From: Poseidonibacter ostreae
GTDB taxonomy: Bacteria > Campylobacterota > Campylobacteria > Campylobacterales > Arcobacteraceae
DNA: 64,000 nt
Direction of reading: 5' to 3'
Assembly (NCBI RefSeq): GCF_009208075.1
Contig: NZ_WFKJ01000003.1
Coordinates: 1 to 64,000, forward strand
Shown: in pieces, positions 1 to 7,276 of the stretch
How the letters are laid out: each line of letters begins with the position of its first letter
Numbering within the stretch: the stretch's first letter is position 1
The notes under the pieces: generated by a model
What the model was told of the DNA's origin: nothing
What the model saw: the letters and a program-made list of their open reading frames with translations, nothing else
The model's database searches: none
Translations under genes and position numbers: made by a program

Positions 1-101
1 TGTACTTTTTGGAGTATGTTCAACAATTCAACTCTTTTTAGAACAAGATTTCCATTAGTAAAAACTGTTCCAAAAGTAAGAAATTGTGAAACGAAATTCA
101 T
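1..101 (-). CDS. Start of an unknown gene, cut by the window edge
   Basis: An open frame starts with ATG at 101-99 and runs off the left edge without a stop (33 codons visible, beginning MNFVSQFLTF). I do not recognise the product. Its reality is supported by a diverged copy at 4975-5088 that is aligned codon by codon: both carry TVFTNG, and 16 of 28 aligned residues are identical. No clear ribosome-binding site is seen; the gene would begin 21 bases downstream of the stop of the large NTPase gene and on the same strand, so it may be the next gene of that transcript. Confidence 0.35.
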   Translation of the reverse strand, partial: MNFVSQFLTFGTVFTNGNLVLKRVELLNILQKV

Positions 102-121
102 AAGGACCAAAAAGAATTAGA

Positions 122-3100
122 TTAGAGATACCTATCTATTATAGTTTTTTCTGATTTACTAAAGTTACATTTTAACATAGATTTTTCCTTATTTGTAACA
201 GTAGATATATATTGAATACTTTCAAGTTTTTCTAAAATACGTAAATATTCAGGACTATTTTTTATATTAATATATCTTTTTTTATTTAAATTATTGATAT
301 TTTTAAAGCTATGATTATCAATTGCATTTAAAACTTCATATAATTCATCTCTATTTGTAAATTTATATAATAAGAATAGTTCAATTTTTTTACTTTTTAC
401 AATACTTGATTCCATTACCAATAAATATTTTTCATATTCAATTCTTGATATATTATTTTTAATTTTTTCTGCAATGTTCTTTGTAAAACTATCATCATTT
501 TTTAAATATGTTTCATCAACATAATGATTAATAAGCTCAACTTCATAATTATTCATTTCTTCGAACTTTATAAGCTCTTTAATTAATGTAATATCATTTA
601 TATCTAATGTAACACTTATTTCATTAATTATGAGTTCACTAGTTAAAACTTTTTCTTCTTCTTTGCGTTTAATAAAAAAGCTATCTAAATATTTTAATAA
701 AAGAGTTACTTTTTTAGATAAGCTTATATCACTTTGTAATAATGGAATTAAAGCATCTGTATTTATATTATATGGATTGTGCTTTATAACTTCGTATAAA
801 TTATCTTCAAAATCATCAATATCCCCAAAATATGTAGGTTCTAACACCATATTGATAAAATCAACCAAAACAGCATTATCAAAAATTTTGTCTTTTAAAA
901 TTTCCTTAACAGTCATATCATTAAAAAACATCAGATTATTTAATGTCTCTGTGATTTGCTCACCAAAATTCTCTTTCTTTTCATTTTTAGAATACTCTAA
1001 ATGCAAGTATCTTATTAGCAGTTCTAATCTCTTATTTAATTCGATGTCTTCATTTTTAAATATAAGTCTTAATACCTCTATATTAGAATCTAAAATATTT
1101 ACATTAATTAAATCCATTACAACCTCTAAGAATTCTTTATCTTTAGGAAACTTATCACTACAATAATTATTTACTATTTCAAACCTATCTTCTTTTTTAT
1201 ACTTTATGTTTTTAACTATTTGATATATATAATCATCTGCTATTTCAAAATCTTTTATATTTGAATATATATTTTCAGTATCTTGTTCCAATAACAATAA
1301 AGTCTGCTTCTGCGTTCTTTCATCAATTAAATATGAGTAGTTTTCAGAGTTAACATTAATTTTATGCCTAATTATATAATCTAATCTCTCATCTGATATA
1401 TCTCCTAAATCTTTACAGCTAAATTCTTCTAAACTATTATCTATTATTTGCTTAAATTCTTTAAATTCAATATCGTTTGAGTTGATTAAAAATTGAACTA
1501 ATTTTGTAAAACCTTTTGGATAATGTTGAAAAAATATTTTTTCAACATTATCATTAGCCTTTAAAAATTTTATAAAAGCTTCTCTCTTGATATAATCTTT
1601 TTCAATAAATAGTAGGTTTAAATTACTTATGTTAGGAGTTATTCTCTTTTTTTCTGTTAAAAGACTCCAATAATTACAATGTACTTGTTTGAGGTCTGAA
1701 ATTAATGTGCTATTTGCATTTAGAAATATTTGAATACTTTCATACGTTATTTGTTCATTACCAAGTAGGTGTAGTACAGCTTTTTCATCTTCATTGGCAT
1801 TATGTATATGTGAATATACATTCTGAACATATTCATTTATATTTTTAAATATATAGGTAGATAATACATTGGGAGAACGTTTTTTTATTAATGTATAGTT
1901 TTGTTCATAGAATGCATCTTCTGAAACATCTAATAAATTTTGCATCCAGAACATATTTATTTTGTAAAGACAAAAAACTCCAATAGTGTTAAAAGTTCCG
2001 CTATGTTTATTTTTAGAAATATCCTTGAGCTCAGAAAACTTAATATTAAGACTTTTTAGTAGTTCATGAAAAATACTTATCTCAATTGTTAATCCCTCAA
2101 GTATATTTGACAGTTCTTTTCTTTCATTAAGATAAGTAGTTAAGGAATTGTCTATATTTAAATTTATTATTTTTTGAAATTCTATATTATTAACAAGATA
2201 TATAAAATATTGTTCTTTCTTTTTTTCATCAAGTTTATCATTGATTATCTTCCAAAAAGATGTATTTATGTCACATACTTTATTTAGGAATTCTTTTACT
2301 AAGTTGGTATCTGATTTCGTATTTAGGTACTCTATAAAGCTGTCAATAAAATCAAACCTAAACTCATCTATTATGAATTCTAATTTAATATCTAAATATC
2401 TTTTATTTAAGTCTGTCTTTTTAGATAAAAGTTCAGCACATAAATCAAAGTTTAAAATACTCTCTTTTTTAAACTCTTCTTCATTTAAATACTCTATCAC
2501 TTCTTCAATCTCTTTTAATTTTAAACTATATGAAAGTGCAGGTTTAATACTTTTAAGATTTTCAATAAAGTTTATATCATTAATAGATTTACCACCTTCA
2601 TAATAAAAAGAAATATAGTTATGATAAGTTTCATCTAAATATCCATATCTTATAAGATATGAAAGAACTTTATCATTGTATAACTTCTCACCTAATACTA
2701 ATTTTTCATTATATTTTAAAACTAACTTCTGTAAAGTATTTTGATTAATATTATTAATAGTTTCTTTTAATTCGCTTATTTTTACCTTACATGCTTCAAT
2801 TTCATCTTTATATTTATTTTCAATAATATTAATTCTTTGATTATATGACCGTTCTGGATTTACTTCTTTTTCCAAGTCTTTGAATGATTTTCTACTATTT
2901 ACCAGACCTTGATTATAGTTGTAATATTTAATATTTGATAATTCTTTAAATTTATTAAAACTATCATCTTCCAAAGATTCATTTAAATAAATCTTTCCAT
3001 TTTCATTATCATATATATATGATATACCATAATTATTGTTATCTATACATTTAAAAAATTGCTGTACATAAACTGCTCTTAATTCTTTAACATCTAATTG

Positions 3101-4588
3101 CATTTCAGTTTTTACTCTTTTTTCGTAATCTTTTATATCCTTTTTGCAATCAGTAATTTCTTGTTCAGTTTTATCTATAACCTCTTTTAATCGTACTTTC
3201 AAATCATCTTTATTGAATACTTTATACACTAGCCCATTGTCTTCAAGAAGTTCTGCAAAATCAGAAGGGTTATAGTTTTTATAAATAGACATTGCAAAAA
3301 GTTTGTCATAATTTAAATTGATTTTTTTATTTTTATCATCAGAATTACAAAGAAGGTTTTTATATATTATAAACTCATTGAAAATATTTTGTAATAGTCT
3401 CATATCATGAATAAAAATAGAAATATCTTGTATAAATCTTTTAGATAGATATACTTTTGATTTATTCTCTTCTTTTTTTAATTCTTCATCATTAAATACA
3501 TTAATACCTACTTCACTAATTAAATCCTTTATTTTTGTATAAGAATTAGATGAATTAATAACGGGAATGACTGGAATAAAAGAGTCAAAAAACTTTGTTC
3601 TTTCTTTATCCTCAAATATATTATCTCTTATTGCATATATAAATTTAATTTCTCTTTCTTTATTAATTTGCTTAGACTTATTAAGAAGCTCATTAATTTC
3701 TCTTAACTTAATAAAAATTTCTGGGTTTTCAAATCTATCCAAATCTTCAATTACTACAATATTGTATTTTGTTGATTCAAAAAAGTAGATAATTTCATCT
3801 AAGTGTTTATTCATAATTGAATGCTTTGAACTTTCATCAACTAAATTTATCTCAGGTGATTGTAAACTAAGTTTTTGAAGCTTTATTCTTGGAGATAACT
3901 TCATTAAAGAAAAAATAAAATATAACATACCGACTACAAATATAATTGTACATACTTCATTTAAATAGAATTCATTTTCAAATTCTTTTATATCTACGAA
4001 AGAAAAGATTTTTTTAAATTCATCTGATTTAAATAACTTAACAGTTGTAAGAAGCCATAAAAAGACTCCTAATGTTTTTATTTTCATGTACTTAATTGTT
4101 AATATGCGTTTAAATCTTGAATTTGGGATATCATCATAATCAACTTTGTAAAACATTTGTTGAAGAATACCTTTTTCAATCTCTTTTATATCAACATTTA
4201 ATAAATCATTTTCATCATCTTTTGTATTATTTTTCTTAGGAATTTGCTTATCGTCAGGAATCTTTTTTTCATCATCATTAGACTTTTTTTCTTTACTTTT
4301 AAATGTAGCAAGTGAAATATTTAAAAACTTATAGTCACTTCTCCAATTATTCTCTTTCTCAAAAGATTTAATTATAGTACTTTTACCTGAACCATAAGAA
4401 CCGGAGAGTGCAATATTATTTACACCTTTAGTATTTAGAACTTTATATAAAGAATTAAAATATACTTTATTCTTTATATCGTCTCTAGGAATTAGACTAT
4501 TATATACTTTAAGTTGCTCTTTTTTCTCTTTATTTTCAAAATAGAAAAGTAGTTGTTTCAGTTTATTTATTACTATATTTTTAATCAT
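122..4588 (-). CDS. YobI-like giant P-loop NTPase with membrane insertion
   Basis: Predicted 1488-residue ATPase. The start at 4588 is chosen over an in-frame ATG at 4654 because AAGGA lies about 11 bases ahead of it. A Walker A motif GSYGSGKS is at about residues 63-70 and a Walker B-like IVVIEDLDRF at about 276-285. Two hydrophobic segments (about 171-188 and 212-230) lie between them, the layout of KAP/YobI-type NTPases, where a membrane hairpin is inserted in the NTPase fold. Before the first segment is a low-complexity Lys/Asp linker. The remaining ~1100 residues are charged and helical, with coiled-coil-like stretches, and match nothing I know. YobI-type proteins are poorly characterised; the size, membrane anchor and island setting suggest a stress or anti-phage sensor, which is inference. 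The gene lies in accessory DNA ending at a broken comM. Confidence 0.75.
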   Translation of the reverse strand: MIKNIVINKLKQLLFYFENKEKKEQLKVYNSLIPRDDIKNKVYFNSLYKVLNTKGVNNIALSGSYGSGKSTIIKSFEKENNWRSDYKFLNISLATFKSKEKKSNDDEKKIPDDKQIPKKNNTKDDENDLLNVDIKEIEKGILQQMFYKVDYDDIPNSRFKRILTIKYMKIKTLGVFLWLLTTVKLFKSDEFKKIFSFVDIKEFENEFYLNEVCTIIFVVGMLYFIFSLMKLSPRIKLQKLSLQSPEINLVDESSKHSIMNKHLDEIIYFFESTKYNIVVIEDLDRFENPEIFIKLREINELLNKSKQINKEREIKFIYAIRDNIFEDKERTKFFDSFIPVIPVINSSNSYTKIKDLISEVGINVFNDEELKKEENKSKVYLSKRFIQDISIFIHDMRLLQNIFNEFIIYKNLLCNSDDKNKKINLNYDKLFAMSIYKNYNPSDFAELLEDNGLVYKVFNKDDLKVRLKEVIDKTEQEITDCKKDIKDYEKRVKTEMQLDVKELRAVYVQQFFKCIDNNNYGISYIYDNENGKIYLNESLEDDSFNKFKELSNIKYYNYNQGLVNSRKSFKDLEKEVNPERSYNQRINIIENKYKDEIEACKVKISELKETINNINQNTLQKLVLKYNEKLVLGEKLYNDKVLSYLIRYGYLDETYHNYISFYYEGGKSINDINFIENLKSIKPALSYSLKLKEIEEVIEYLNEEEFKKESILNFDLCAELLSKKTDLNKRYLDIKLEFIIDEFRFDFIDSFIEYLNTKSDTNLVKEFLNKVCDINTSFWKIINDKLDEKKKEQYFIYLVNNIEFQKIINLNIDNSLTTYLNERKELSNILEGLTIEISIFHELLKSLNIKFSELKDISKNKHSGTFNTIGVFCLYKINMFWMQNLLDVSEDAFYEQNYTLIKKRSPNVLSTYIFKNINEYVQNVYSHIHNANEDEKAVLHLLGNEQITYESIQIFLNANSTLISDLKQVHCNYWSLLTEKKRITPNISNLNLLFIEKDYIKREAFIKFLKANDNVEKIFFQHYPKGFTKLVQFLINSNDIEFKEFKQIIDNSLEEFSCKDLGDISDERLDYIIRHKINVNSENYSYLIDERTQKQTLLLLEQDTENIYSNIKDFEIADDYIYQIVKNIKYKKEDRFEIVNNYCSDKFPKDKEFLEVVMDLINVNILDSNIEVLRLIFKNEDIELNKRLELLIRYLHLEYSKNEKKENFGEQITETLNNLMFFNDMTVKEILKDKIFDNAVLVDFINMVLEPTYFGDIDDFEDNLYEVIKHNPYNINTDALIPLLQSDISLSKKVTLLLKYLDSFFIKRKEEEKVLTSELIINEISVTLDINDITLIKELIKFEEMNNYEVELINHYVDETYLKNDDSFTKNIAEKIKNNISRIEYEKYLLVMESSIVKSKKIELFLLYKFTNRDELYEVLNAIDNHSFKNINNLNKKRYINIKNSPEYLRILEKLESIQYISTVTNKEKSMLKCNFSKSEKTIIDRYL

Positions 4589-4732
4589 ATTTAAGTTTTC
4601 CTTAAATTTATTTATTATTATATACAAGATAGCCTGAAAAGCAACAGATAACATACCAAAAAATGTTACCTATTGAAACAACGATAAAAACCTTAATTAA
4701 TGAAAATATAAACTTATTATATGTGTTTAACA

Positions 4733-4852
4733 TTAATATTTAGATGATACATAGACTATGTATATTAATGAGTATCGGGATAAACATGAAAATGTTAAAT
4801 ATATTAGAAAATTCAGTATGAGTAAAAAAATTGTTACAAAAATAAGTTTCAA
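4733..4852 (-). CDS. Possible 39-residue hydrophobic peptide
   Basis: A TTG-started frame just upstream of the NTPase gene encodes a 39-residue peptide (MKLIFVTIFLLILNFLIYLT...) with one long hydrophobic segment. GGGAG lies about 9 bases before the TTG, next to a TCCC-TTCG-GGGA tetraloop hairpin at 4863-4874. It could be a small membrane peptide or leader, but AT-rich DNA easily yields such frames. No homologue is recognised. Confidence 0.25.
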   Translation of the reverse strand: MKLIFVTIFLLILNFLIYLTFSCLSRYSLIYIVYVSSKY

Positions 4853-4974
4853 AACGGTTGTCTCCCTTCGGGGATTCACCCACTAACTCCAGTAACCTTA
4901 AGATGAACAACATACTTTATACTTCAAATTTGACACTTTTTTCTTTTTCTCTTCAATATCTCATAATGGGATTG

Positions 4975-5088
4975 TTAATATATCGCTGTTCTAAATATTT
5001 TCTGTACCTTATTTAACATACTCCAGATTTCAACTTTTTTTGGAACAATCTTTCCATTCGTAAAAACTGTTACAAAAATAAGACTTTG
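4975..5088 (-). pseudogene. Decayed copy of the gene starting at 101
   Basis: The minus-strand frame between stops reads 37 residues (QSLIFVTVFTNG... ending FRTAIY) and has no ATG, GTG or TTG start at its head. It aligns residue by residue with the product of the partial gene at 1-101, sharing TVFTNG and 16 of 28 positions, so the similarity is in coding sequence and not only in DNA composition. It therefore looks like a truncated paralogue left just downstream of the nuclease gene. Both copies lie on the minus strand, so they form diverged direct repeats around the NTPase gene. Confidence 0.45.
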
Positions 5089-5104
5089 TTATACAAAAGA
5101 GTAT

Positions 5105-5533
5105 TTATTTACACCAATCTTTAGCTTTCTTCCCACCATGATATGAAACTGCAAGACTATTATTGATTAGTTCTACAGATAAACTTCTATTTTGTTCATT
5201 AAATAGATCAGCAACAATTCTAAAGTATTTATCTTTCTTCATGTTACGCAGCTCCAAGCTTTTAGCTTTTCTAATGAAGTTAACTGTAAATTGTTTTGCT
5301 TTACGTGCAAGTACTTTTTCTTGCGTACATTTAGCTCTAATTTCAGGAGTATCAACATTAGCTAATCGTATAGCCATCTTATGGCCTATAATCTCTGGGT
5401 AGCTCTTTATATTAACTCTGAATGTATCTCCATCATAGATGCTTGTAACTTCATCTATTGACACACTTCCATAGTTTTTTTCTGCGTGTAGTAAATTTAT
5501 AAGTATTAAAATTACAAGTAGTATTCTTTTCAT
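5105..5533 (-). CDS. Secreted SNase-like (thermonuclease family) nuclease
   Basis: A 142-residue protein with an N-terminal signal peptide (MKRILLVILILINLLHAEK). The mature part matches the staphylococcal nuclease fold: DGDTFRVNI gives the first acidic calcium-site strand, RLANVDTPEIR carries the catalytic Arg and Glu region, and DKYFRIVADLF carries the second catalytic Arg region. The length is right for a single-domain enzyme, so it is probably an active periplasmic or secreted nuclease. It starts only 3 bases after the stop of the winged-helix frame and probably shares its transcript. Island-borne SNase genes are common; a role in DNA scavenging or defence is inference. Confidence 0.8.
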   Translation of the reverse strand: MKRILLVILILINLLHAEKNYGSVSIDEVTSIYDGDTFRVNIKSYPEIIGHKMAIRLANVDTPEIRAKCTQEKVLARKAKQFTVNFIRKAKSLELRNMKKDKYFRIVADLFNEQNRSLSVELINNSLAVSYHGGKKAKDWCK

Positions 5534-5536
5534 GCT

Positions 5537-5734
5537 CTAATCTATTTCCATATTATTGATATTTATTGTGTATCCCAAATTTGAATGATTGGTAATTATT
5601 CCATAATAGGTCTTTACTCGTATTTGATTAATCATATTTCGAAAGGTAAAAATTGATACATTATCTTTTCCCCATGCTCTTAATGTGAGTACATCAACAG
5701 GTACAACTTTTCCTTTATACTCAAGAAGTGTCAT
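5537..5734 (-). CDS. Winged-helix (OmpR/PhoB C-terminal type) fragment
   Basis: A 65-residue product in which KGKVVPVDVL, AWG, FRNMINQIRVK and NLGYTI line up with the effector domain of OmpR-type regulators (the usual pattern has GxVVSRExL, VWG, VxxxIxxLRxKI and GxGYRL). There is no receiver domain. The matching frame continues 19 codons upstream (IHLRKLEREII) to a stop that is also the stop of the gene at 5786-5962, so translation could start at the ATG at 5734 or the piece could be the tail of a longer regulator split by a stop codon. A standalone DNA-binding protein is possible. The nuclease gene follows after 3 bases. Confidence 0.5.
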   Translation of the reverse strand: MTLLEYKGKVVPVDVLTLRAWGKDNVSIFTFRNMINQIRVKTYYGIITNHSNLGYTININNMEID

Positions 5735-5785
5735 TATAATTTCTCTTTCTAATTTTCTTAGATGAATTTCTTTTTTATCTTTATC

Positions 5786-5962
5786 TTATAGCTTCTCTAA
5801 ATATCTATGATAATAAAAACCCTCTCCTAAATCTACTCGTGAGCTTAAGTCATATTCTATTAATTGCTGTAGGTATTGGGGAAGTGTTAGCTTTTCTCTC
5901 TTAAGATTTAAAGTAAGTTTATCATCTACTTGTTTTGATAAATCAAGTTCAACAGTTTTCAT
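5786..5962 (-). CDS. Small protein, possible ribbon-helix-helix regulator
   Basis: A 58-residue frame with an excellent ribosome-binding site (AAAGGAAAAG just before ATG at 5962). The sequence MKTVELDLSKQVDDKLTLNL has alternating hydrophobic residues like the beta strand of a ribbon-helix-helix protein, followed by two amphipathic helices (LTLPQYLQQLIEYDLSS). The fold is suggested by pattern only. Upstream, a repeated AAACATTA motif overlaps its own -10 box, as expected for an autoregulated repressor. Its TAA stop is directly followed, in the same frame, by the winged-helix coding sequence, so a single nonsense change may separate two parts of an ancestral protein. Confidence 0.5.
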   Translation of the reverse strand: MKTVELDLSKQVDDKLTLNLKREKLTLPQYLQQLIEYDLSSRVDLGEGFYYHRYLEKL

Positions 5963-5980
5963 ACTTTTCCTTTAATAATT

Positions 5981-6084
5981 GAAAACATTATACATAGAAA
6001 ACATTAATGAAAAATTATGATTATTGCAAACTTTAATTCCATTATGTAATGTTTATAAGATTTTATGTCAATACGTTATATAAT
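5981..6084. promoter_or_regulatory. Divergent promoter region with AAACATTA repeats
   Basis: GAAAACATTA occurs twice in direct orientation (5981-5990 and 5997-6006), 16 bases apart, and AAACATTA occurs inverted at 6048-6055. The first copy overlaps a minus-strand TATAAT (5992-5987), 25 bases before the ATG at 5962. A plus-strand TATAAT is at 6079-6084. This looks like an operator for the small protein at 5786-5962, controlling both directions. Confidence 0.45.
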
Positions 6085-6089
6085 ATTCT

Positions 6090-6380
6090 ATGAATTACCT
6101 TGAATCTTATCACCTAACAGACCTTGAAATCTACTGTAAAAATAAATGTGTTAGGATTGTTATTGAACATCATAATGAAGATAAGAATGAAATAATATAC
6201 TATCGTGGATTATATGGTGGCTATCTCTATGGTAAAAAATTAACAAATAGTTTGAAGAAAAGAAAAAATAGATTAACAAATATTGAATTGTATAATCATC
6301 TAAAAGTTTACAAAAATTGGAAAACTAAAAGTCGCGGAGAACAAGATGCCTTATACGATATTATGAATTATTTAAGTTGA
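6090..6380 (+). CDS. Hypothetical 96-residue protein, perhaps leaderless
   Basis: A soluble, basic, tyrosine-rich 96-residue protein (MNYLESYHLT... IYYRGLYGGYLYGKKLT...). I do not recognise a family. It has no signal peptide or membrane segment. A consensus TATAAT ends only 5 bases before the ATG and no Shine-Dalgarno sequence is present, so transcription would begin almost at the start codon and give a leaderless message; otherwise the start is misplaced, although no better in-frame start exists. It is transcribed divergently from the small regulator at 5786-5962. Confidence 0.5.
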   Translation: MNYLESYHLTDLEIYCKNKCVRIVIEHHNEDKNEIIYYRGLYGGYLYGKKLTNSLKKRKNRLTNIELYNHLKVYKNWKTKSRGEQDALYDIMNYLS

Positions 6381-6572
6381 TGAAATTTAAGTAATTACAT
6401 TTATTCCTTTTTCCTATACCTATTATAACTAATTATAAAGTACTTATCGATAGTCTTTGATTAAAATATCTAGTAAGTCTGTTATCTTTTAAATAAACTC
6501 AAATTTTAGAGAGATAAGAAAAAAGTAGAGAGGCGCTTTTTATTCTTTTACTGCAATTTAATATACAAAATC

Positions 6573-6660
6573 ATTAATTACATATTATTAGTTACATATT
6601 TTTAGAATATGTGATTAATAAAACTACCATTAAATGGCCTTTTATATTAATTACATATTA
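6573..6660. repeat. Repeat cluster at the island-comM junction
   Basis: A 15-bp perfect direct repeat, ATTAATTACATATTA, lies at 6573-6587 and 6646-6660. A 13-of-14 inverted copy is at 6606-6619, and another TTACATATT at 6592-6600. The second direct copy ends exactly where the comM-like frame begins. These could be recombinase-binding or target-duplication sequences at the edge of the inserted DNA, or simple low-complexity sequence. Confidence 0.4.
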
Positions 6661-6661
6661 A

Positions 6662-7276
6662 TTACTACAATATAAAACTCCTGGCATTTTATTTTTTGAT
6701 GAATTGCCACACTTCTCAAAATCCATACTTGAAGCTTTACGAGAGCCTTTGGAAGATAATAAGATATTGATTTCAAGAGTAAATAGTAAAACAGAATATG
6801 AAACAAAATTTATTTTTATCTCTTCTATGAATCCTTGTCCTTGTGGAAATCTTCTTTCAAGTATCAAGCAATGTAGATGTAATGAAGCTGAAATACAAAG
6901 ATATAAAAATAGATTATCAGAGCCATTTTTAGACAGAATTGATTTATATGTAGTTATGAATGATACTTTAAATGACTCAAAAAATATTGTAAGTTCAAAA
7001 GAGTTACATGAAAATGTAATTAAAGCATTTGTAAAACAAATGCAAAGAGGGCAAGAGGAGTTAAATGGAAAATTATCAGATGCAGATATAAAAAAATATT
7101 GTCTTTTAGATGAAGATGCAAAAGCTTTATTTGAAAGTGCAAAAATAAATTATCAATTATCTTTTAGAAGTATAAACAAAGTTTTAAAAGTTGCACGAAC
7201 TATTGCTGATTTAAATGATAATAAATCAATTACAAAAAATGATTTATTAAAAAGTTTGAGTTTTAGACGTAGGTAA
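6662..7276 (+). pseudogene. comM: comM/yifB (Mg-chelatase-like ATPase), 3' part only
   Basis: The frame opens after a stop at 6659-6661 and reads TPGILFFDELPHFSKSILEALREPLEDNK, which is the Walker B region of ComM/YifB, then continues with the cysteine-containing SMNPCPCGN segment, a sensor region and the C-terminal LSFRRR. The N-terminal Lon-type domain and Walker A of this ~500-residue protein are missing. ComM family proteins are ring helicases promoting branch migration during natural transformation. Everything upstream is unrelated accessory DNA, so the gene was cut by an insertion or deletion; a TTG at 6704 could in principle start a useless fragment. comM is a known insertion hot spot in other bacteria. 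era follows after 78 bases. Confidence 0.85.

Follow-up and report, generated by a model that had tools for sequence, protein, structure and literature searches.

A distant Tmn/YobI-family transmembrane NTPase on a mobile comM island of Poseidonibacter ostreae, very probably a single-gene anti-phage defence

The transmembrane NTPase Tmn of Escherichia coli is a tested anti-phage protein that blocks several phages (PMC11846954). Phages escape from it through mutations in nmad5 or with the help of an anti-Tmn protein that they carry; nmad5 is a DNA-modification gene, and its deletion gives no escape (PMC11846954). The same study filed Tmn under KAP and described its mechanism as unexplored (PMC11846954). 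A second point of comparison is provided by GInt islands (ginABCD), the operon of which encodes three tyrosine recombinases and a small helix-loop-helix protein (PMC5385486).

The window analyzed here covers 64 kb from the start of contig C80 of P. ostreae (genome of 156 contigs), window base 1 being the contig end. It contains an intact ORF of 1488 aa on the minus strand (122-4588), whose downstream end is separated from the end of the contig by 121 bases; the window thus shows upstream neighbours only. The ATG at 4588 is preceded by a ribosome-binding-like sequence, AAGGAAAA, and an alternative in-frame ATG is present at 4654. The G+C content of the gene amounts to 22%, compared with 27% in the remainder of the window. 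Against the nearest relative, a Halarcobacter protein (locus L078), dN/dS was 0.29, with a minimum of 0.23 in the NTPase part and a maximum of 0.35 at the end of the tail. Because the gene is under purifying selection, we do not regard the ORF as a product of chance. The following features were assigned:

122..4588, minus strand: Tmn/YobI-family transmembrane NTPase, 1488 aa, intact (PF20693, PADLOC Tmn, alignment, dN/dS 0.29)
4376..4402, minus strand: Walker A motif GSYGSGKST, residues 63-71 (alignment)
4031..4117, minus strand: membrane helix 1, residues 158-186 (model helix and hydropathy)
3884..3973, minus strand: membrane helix 2, residues 206-235 (model helix and hydropathy)
3734..3748, minus strand: EDLDR Walker-B-type motif, residues 281-285 (alignment)
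125..3223, minus strand: helical tail, residues 456-1488, predicted as a coiled-coil hairpin with a beta tip followed by an ARM/HEAT-like alpha-solenoid (model)
299..1054, minus strand: tail section enlarged by repeats, with units that begin at residues 1179, 1285 and 1393, two units beyond the family (alignment and repeat scoring)
164..274, minus strand: conserved C-terminal small alpha/beta unit, residues 1439-1475 (alignment and model)

The YobI-ATPase domain PF20693 matched residues 43-455 (E 2.6e-109, 366.5 bits against a gathering cut-off of 27) and covered all 363 profile positions. The PADLOC Tmn profile PDLC02220 (E 7e-75) aligned residues 19-1042 with profile positions 15-1044 of 1273, scoring 251 bits as opposed to 2051 for E. 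coli Tmn itself. No match was obtained with the Pfam KAP_NTPase model up to E 1. In a plasmid search, E. coli proteins annotated as 'anti-phage transmembrane ATPase' aligned over 660 aa at about 30% identity, and Roseovarius and Sinorhizobium proteins at 28-29% identity with about 1150 residues aligned (Roseovarius, 28.6% over 1163 aa). In an alignment of eight sequences, invariant residues extended from Walker A through to the C-terminal unit. Judged by sequence, membership of the Tmn/YobI superfamily is firm, while orthology to E. coli Tmn specifically is not. Both are encoded by a single gene on mobile DNA, carry a membrane hairpin that separates Walker A from Walker B and have an extended helical tail, but the window protein is only about 22% identical to E. 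coli Tmn overall, is longer (1488 aa versus about 1270) and appears in another clade of the tree. When the first 700 residues were used to build this tree (fasttree only, long branches), the window protein paired with the Halarcobacter protein (support 100), and the pair fell inside a YobI-like clade of 60 rows that adjoins, and lies outside, the enterobacterial Tmn clade (SH-like 95 for the split). The literature searched contained no tested member of this YobI-like clade. The Bacillus subtilis YobI type shares the PF20693 domain, matched here at full length with 366 bits, but differs in host and context. At least 418 relatives were recovered among 589 candidate stretches of the genome collection, in Bacteroidota, Bacillota, Pseudomonadota, Campylobacterota and others. 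The protein is of a known kind: a distant yet recognisable Tmn relative rather than a new system type, although it stands well apart from the tested proteins and its tail is enlarged.

The original prediction had pictured a giant P-loop protein of 1488 aa whose Walker A and B motifs are separated by two membrane helices and which continues into a long helical tail, and this anatomy was borne out. Walker A (63-71) and EDLDR (281-285) are invariant or nearly so across the family. An AlphaFold model of residues 1-700, computed with 57 relatives (mean pLDDT 81), showed a P-loop NTPase core in which the long helices 158-186 and 206-235 follow the Walker A helix and precede the Walker B strand. Hydropathy peaks coincided with these helices. 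VIA-align of the NTPase model placed ORC/Cdc6 and TnsC on top and also listed the ZAR1 resistosome (plant NLR), CED-4 and BREX BrxC (Z 11.7-14.8); the predicted fold is that of AAA+/STAND proteins, which is common to many sensor-switch proteins. A search of solved structures by sequence with the 1488-aa protein gave no match. The tail, modelled as residues 390-1488 (mean pLDDT 79), was predicted to be a mostly helical alpha-solenoid whose last element, at about 1439-1475, is a small alpha/beta unit, while residues 468-514 and 594-616 formed the coiled-coil hairpin with its small beta tip. Foldseek returned generic ARM/HEAT solenoids only (TM near 0.1), from which the function of the tail is not readable. 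With a family median of 1225 aa, the window protein (1488 aa) and its closest relative (1482 aa) are the two longest proteins measured. The excess of about 250 residues is explained by the tail repeats at 1179, 1285 and 1393, that is, by two additional helical repeats of about 107 aa. Neighbouring units scored z 6-8 above shuffles, the r2-r3 score being left out of the count as it came from overlapping segments; model confidence is low in the extra-repeat region.

The gene is accessory. Relatives were found in eight of 398 other genomes of the order, at differing loci rather than at a fixed core locus, and in 7 of its 87 genera, the window's own included. The gene was not found in the sequenced-phage collection; 13 relatives were detected in viral contigs and others on plasmids, some of them adjoining AbiH, AbiV or VapBC. 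Among the matches listed, the closest relative was the protein of a Halarcobacter MAG (L078, JAQYVX010000008.1), which is 75% identical at the amino acid level over its full length and has the same repeat-expanded tail. At the nucleotide level, 84.4% identity extended across 4501 bp, a stretch that starts and ends with the gene. The surroundings differ: instead of a comM island, L078 exhibits a tyrosine integrase, a short DNA-binding-type gene, a large replication-initiator-type protein (the latter two called by eye) and a dGTP triphosphohydrolase. The two loci show a gene that apparently moves by itself between unrelated elements. L078:5590-16704 appears as a small element with integrase, AlpA-like and Rep-like genes that carries the Tmn relative and the dGTPase (PADLOC dGTPase 7.5e-74). 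A second, distant Tmn relative (32-37% identity) was present at another locus of a congener (G001:C12, L039:6754-10370), where it is split over two frames and adjoins a NERD-domain protein. At L267:5074-13694, a Tmn relative is flanked by a Ser/Thr-kinase-like protein (by eye) and a tyrosine integrase, perhaps representing a defence island with a kinase.

The gene lies next to a comM/yifB gene that is split just before its Walker B region. The features of this insertion are:

6677..7276, plus strand: C-terminal portion of the comM/yifB gene that the island has split (N-terminal portion, C65:12399-13343)
5105..5533, minus strand: SNase-type (thermonuclease) protein, 142 aa, island cargo (PF00565, 1.2e-10)
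1..6676, no strand: right-hand portion of the comM island, its left portion being C65:1-12398 with a GmrSD_N protein, an ABC-type ATPase and a recombinase operon
1..96, no strand: diverged repeat block with further copies at 5003-5098, C84:1-80 and C2:1360-1425; one uninterrupted copy on C2 corresponds to this block plus C65:1-140

comM was unsplit in eight of nine congeners examined, the ninth having no comM match of useful length; compared in this way, the broken gene is evidently the insertion scar of a mobile island. Of the neighbours claimed in the original prediction, the nuclease and the broken comM were recovered, the break marking the site of insertion, whereas none of the supposed small regulators gave a significant family match. 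Next to the N-terminal part of comM, C65:5886-12398 holds a tightly overlapping four-gene operon (483, 208, 462 and 1009 aa). The 1009-aa product gave a sub-threshold match to Phage_integrase (tyrosine recombinase; 6.6e-4); the other three had no Phage_integrase match, and none of the four was matched in NCBIfam. An overlapping four-gene recombinase operon at one end of an island with cargo recalls the GInt layout, but gene order and sizes differ, the target is comM, and the imperfect direct repeats of 10-17 nt known from GInt islands (PMC5385486) were not found: the two comM junctions have no exact stretch of 8 nt or more in common, a test that leaves room for shorter or imperfect repeats. 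GInt membership is unproven. Homologues of the first operon gene occurred in five other genomes of the order searched, and in three of these a truncated comM N-terminus adjoins the homologue, at different comM positions (L270-L275); in one genome, the first operon gene is present in two copies, in 2.8 kb of identical sequence. In Campylobacterales, the recombinase-operon element seems to have landed in comM repeatedly. An integron-cassette reading of the repeats at 1-96 and 5003-5098 was rejected, as copies are few and do not accompany each gene. Elsewhere in the genome, an integron-type integrase (C70:22157-22951; TIGR02249, 348 bits, above cut-off) is interrupted by a stop and probably a relic.

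C80:1 and C65:1 match one continuous C2 copy end to end, with a 4-base overlap, and the island is on this basis probably about 19 kb long, perhaps with an element at the join. The repeat block of about 250 bp is whole in C2 (C2:1325-1577), and both C80/C65 and C84 are cut at the identical base (GTACA), as if another element were located there or the assembly had broken at shared sequence. On the left part of the island, a GmrSD_N (DUF262) protein overlaps a RecF/SMC-like ABC ATPase (C65:327-3459). PADLOC called the former HEC-06/Orf5-like and gave PtuA- and GajA-like matches for the latter; the pair is likely a two-gene defence cassette. The join would put it about 450 bp downstream of the NTPase gene, in the same orientation. 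Apart from this connection to C65, no second defence system was detected among the window's immediate neighbours.

The proposal of a candidate defence NTPase in an island gained support from the Tmn profile match over about 1000 residues, from the patchy, mobile relatives and from the genes around them. Within 8 kb, HsdM relatives occurred at 10 of 93 tmn loci but in none of the 80 control stretches (Fisher p 0.0016), and HsdR relatives at 13 of 93 versus 2 of 80 (p 0.006), the controls being drawn from Campylobacterota only and most tmn loci from other phyla. Restricted to Campylobacterota, the HsdM counts were 3 of 8 versus 0 of 80 (p 0.0005). At several loci, tmn is located inside the hsd gene cluster, at times with Abi_2, SoFic or AlbA/Fic-like genes. 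For the majority of relatives, no defence gene was recognised in the surrounding 8 kb. The 139 immediate neighbours matched 311 PADLOC models versus 117 for 139 random proteins; because these models are redundant, we prefer the HsdM/HsdR locus counts. OLD/SMC-type ATPases were almost absent beside tmn, in cases and controls alike, in a single-sequence search of low sensitivity.

We thus consider it very probable that gene 122-4588, a member of the Tmn/YobI family, provides anti-phage defence by itself and travels as cargo on the mobile comM island; anti-phage activity of the protein is inferred by analogy to the tested E. coli Tmn. It is unlikely that Arcobacteraceae possess a separate type of Tmn in which tandem duplication of a helical unit of about 107 aa enlarged the sensor tail and altered its recognition, and which acts with the downstream GmrSD_N/ABC-ATPase pair as a composite locus. 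Quite unlikely, too, is that the gene works only within a multi-gene defence locus together with this pair, all genes running in the same direction. The presumed join and the PADLOC matches of the pair speak for such an arrangement. According to Wu et al. in 2024, moreover, tmn reportedly cooperates with Gabija, Septu and PrrC, systems that each include an ABC-type ATPase part. However, the nearest relative, L078, has neither gene alongside, the 93 tmn loci yielded no recurring neighbour of this ABC-type ATPase kind (at single-sequence sensitivity), and the C80-C65 join is putative, with C84:1 offering a rival copy of the repeat block's left half. We regard as very unlikely a YobI-like stress or envelope sensor with a cellular role that is mobile only by accident: B. 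subtilis has the same Pfam domain, and no defence role for YobI was found in the literature searched, but patchy presence at different loci, plasmid carriage and restriction-gene neighbours argue against it. A decaying passenger without activity is hardly credible, since frame and motifs are intact and dN/dS is 0.29, even if the split congener copy demonstrates that family members do decay.

For the single-gene defence, a membrane-anchored sensor-switch would be the most economical reading of the modelled anatomy. The N-terminal AAA+/STAND-type NTPase would be anchored in the inner membrane via the two-helix hairpin inside its nucleotide-binding domain, and the alpha-solenoid tail would most likely restrain the NTPase or recognise a phage-induced cue. 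Upon infection, nucleotide exchange or hydrolysis might lead to oligomerisation, whereupon the hairpin could harm the membrane or collapse its potential, or else bring in a partner, and thereby end the infection. Oligomerisation and the role of the tail as a sensor are conjectural, as is membrane damage, which we put forward tentatively as one possible effector step.

Our findings would extend Tmn, a little-understood single-gene defence, to a broad YobI-like set in many phyla. The window protein and its Halarcobacter relative form a close natural pair with an enlarged tail, suited to asking whether the tail sets phage specificity.
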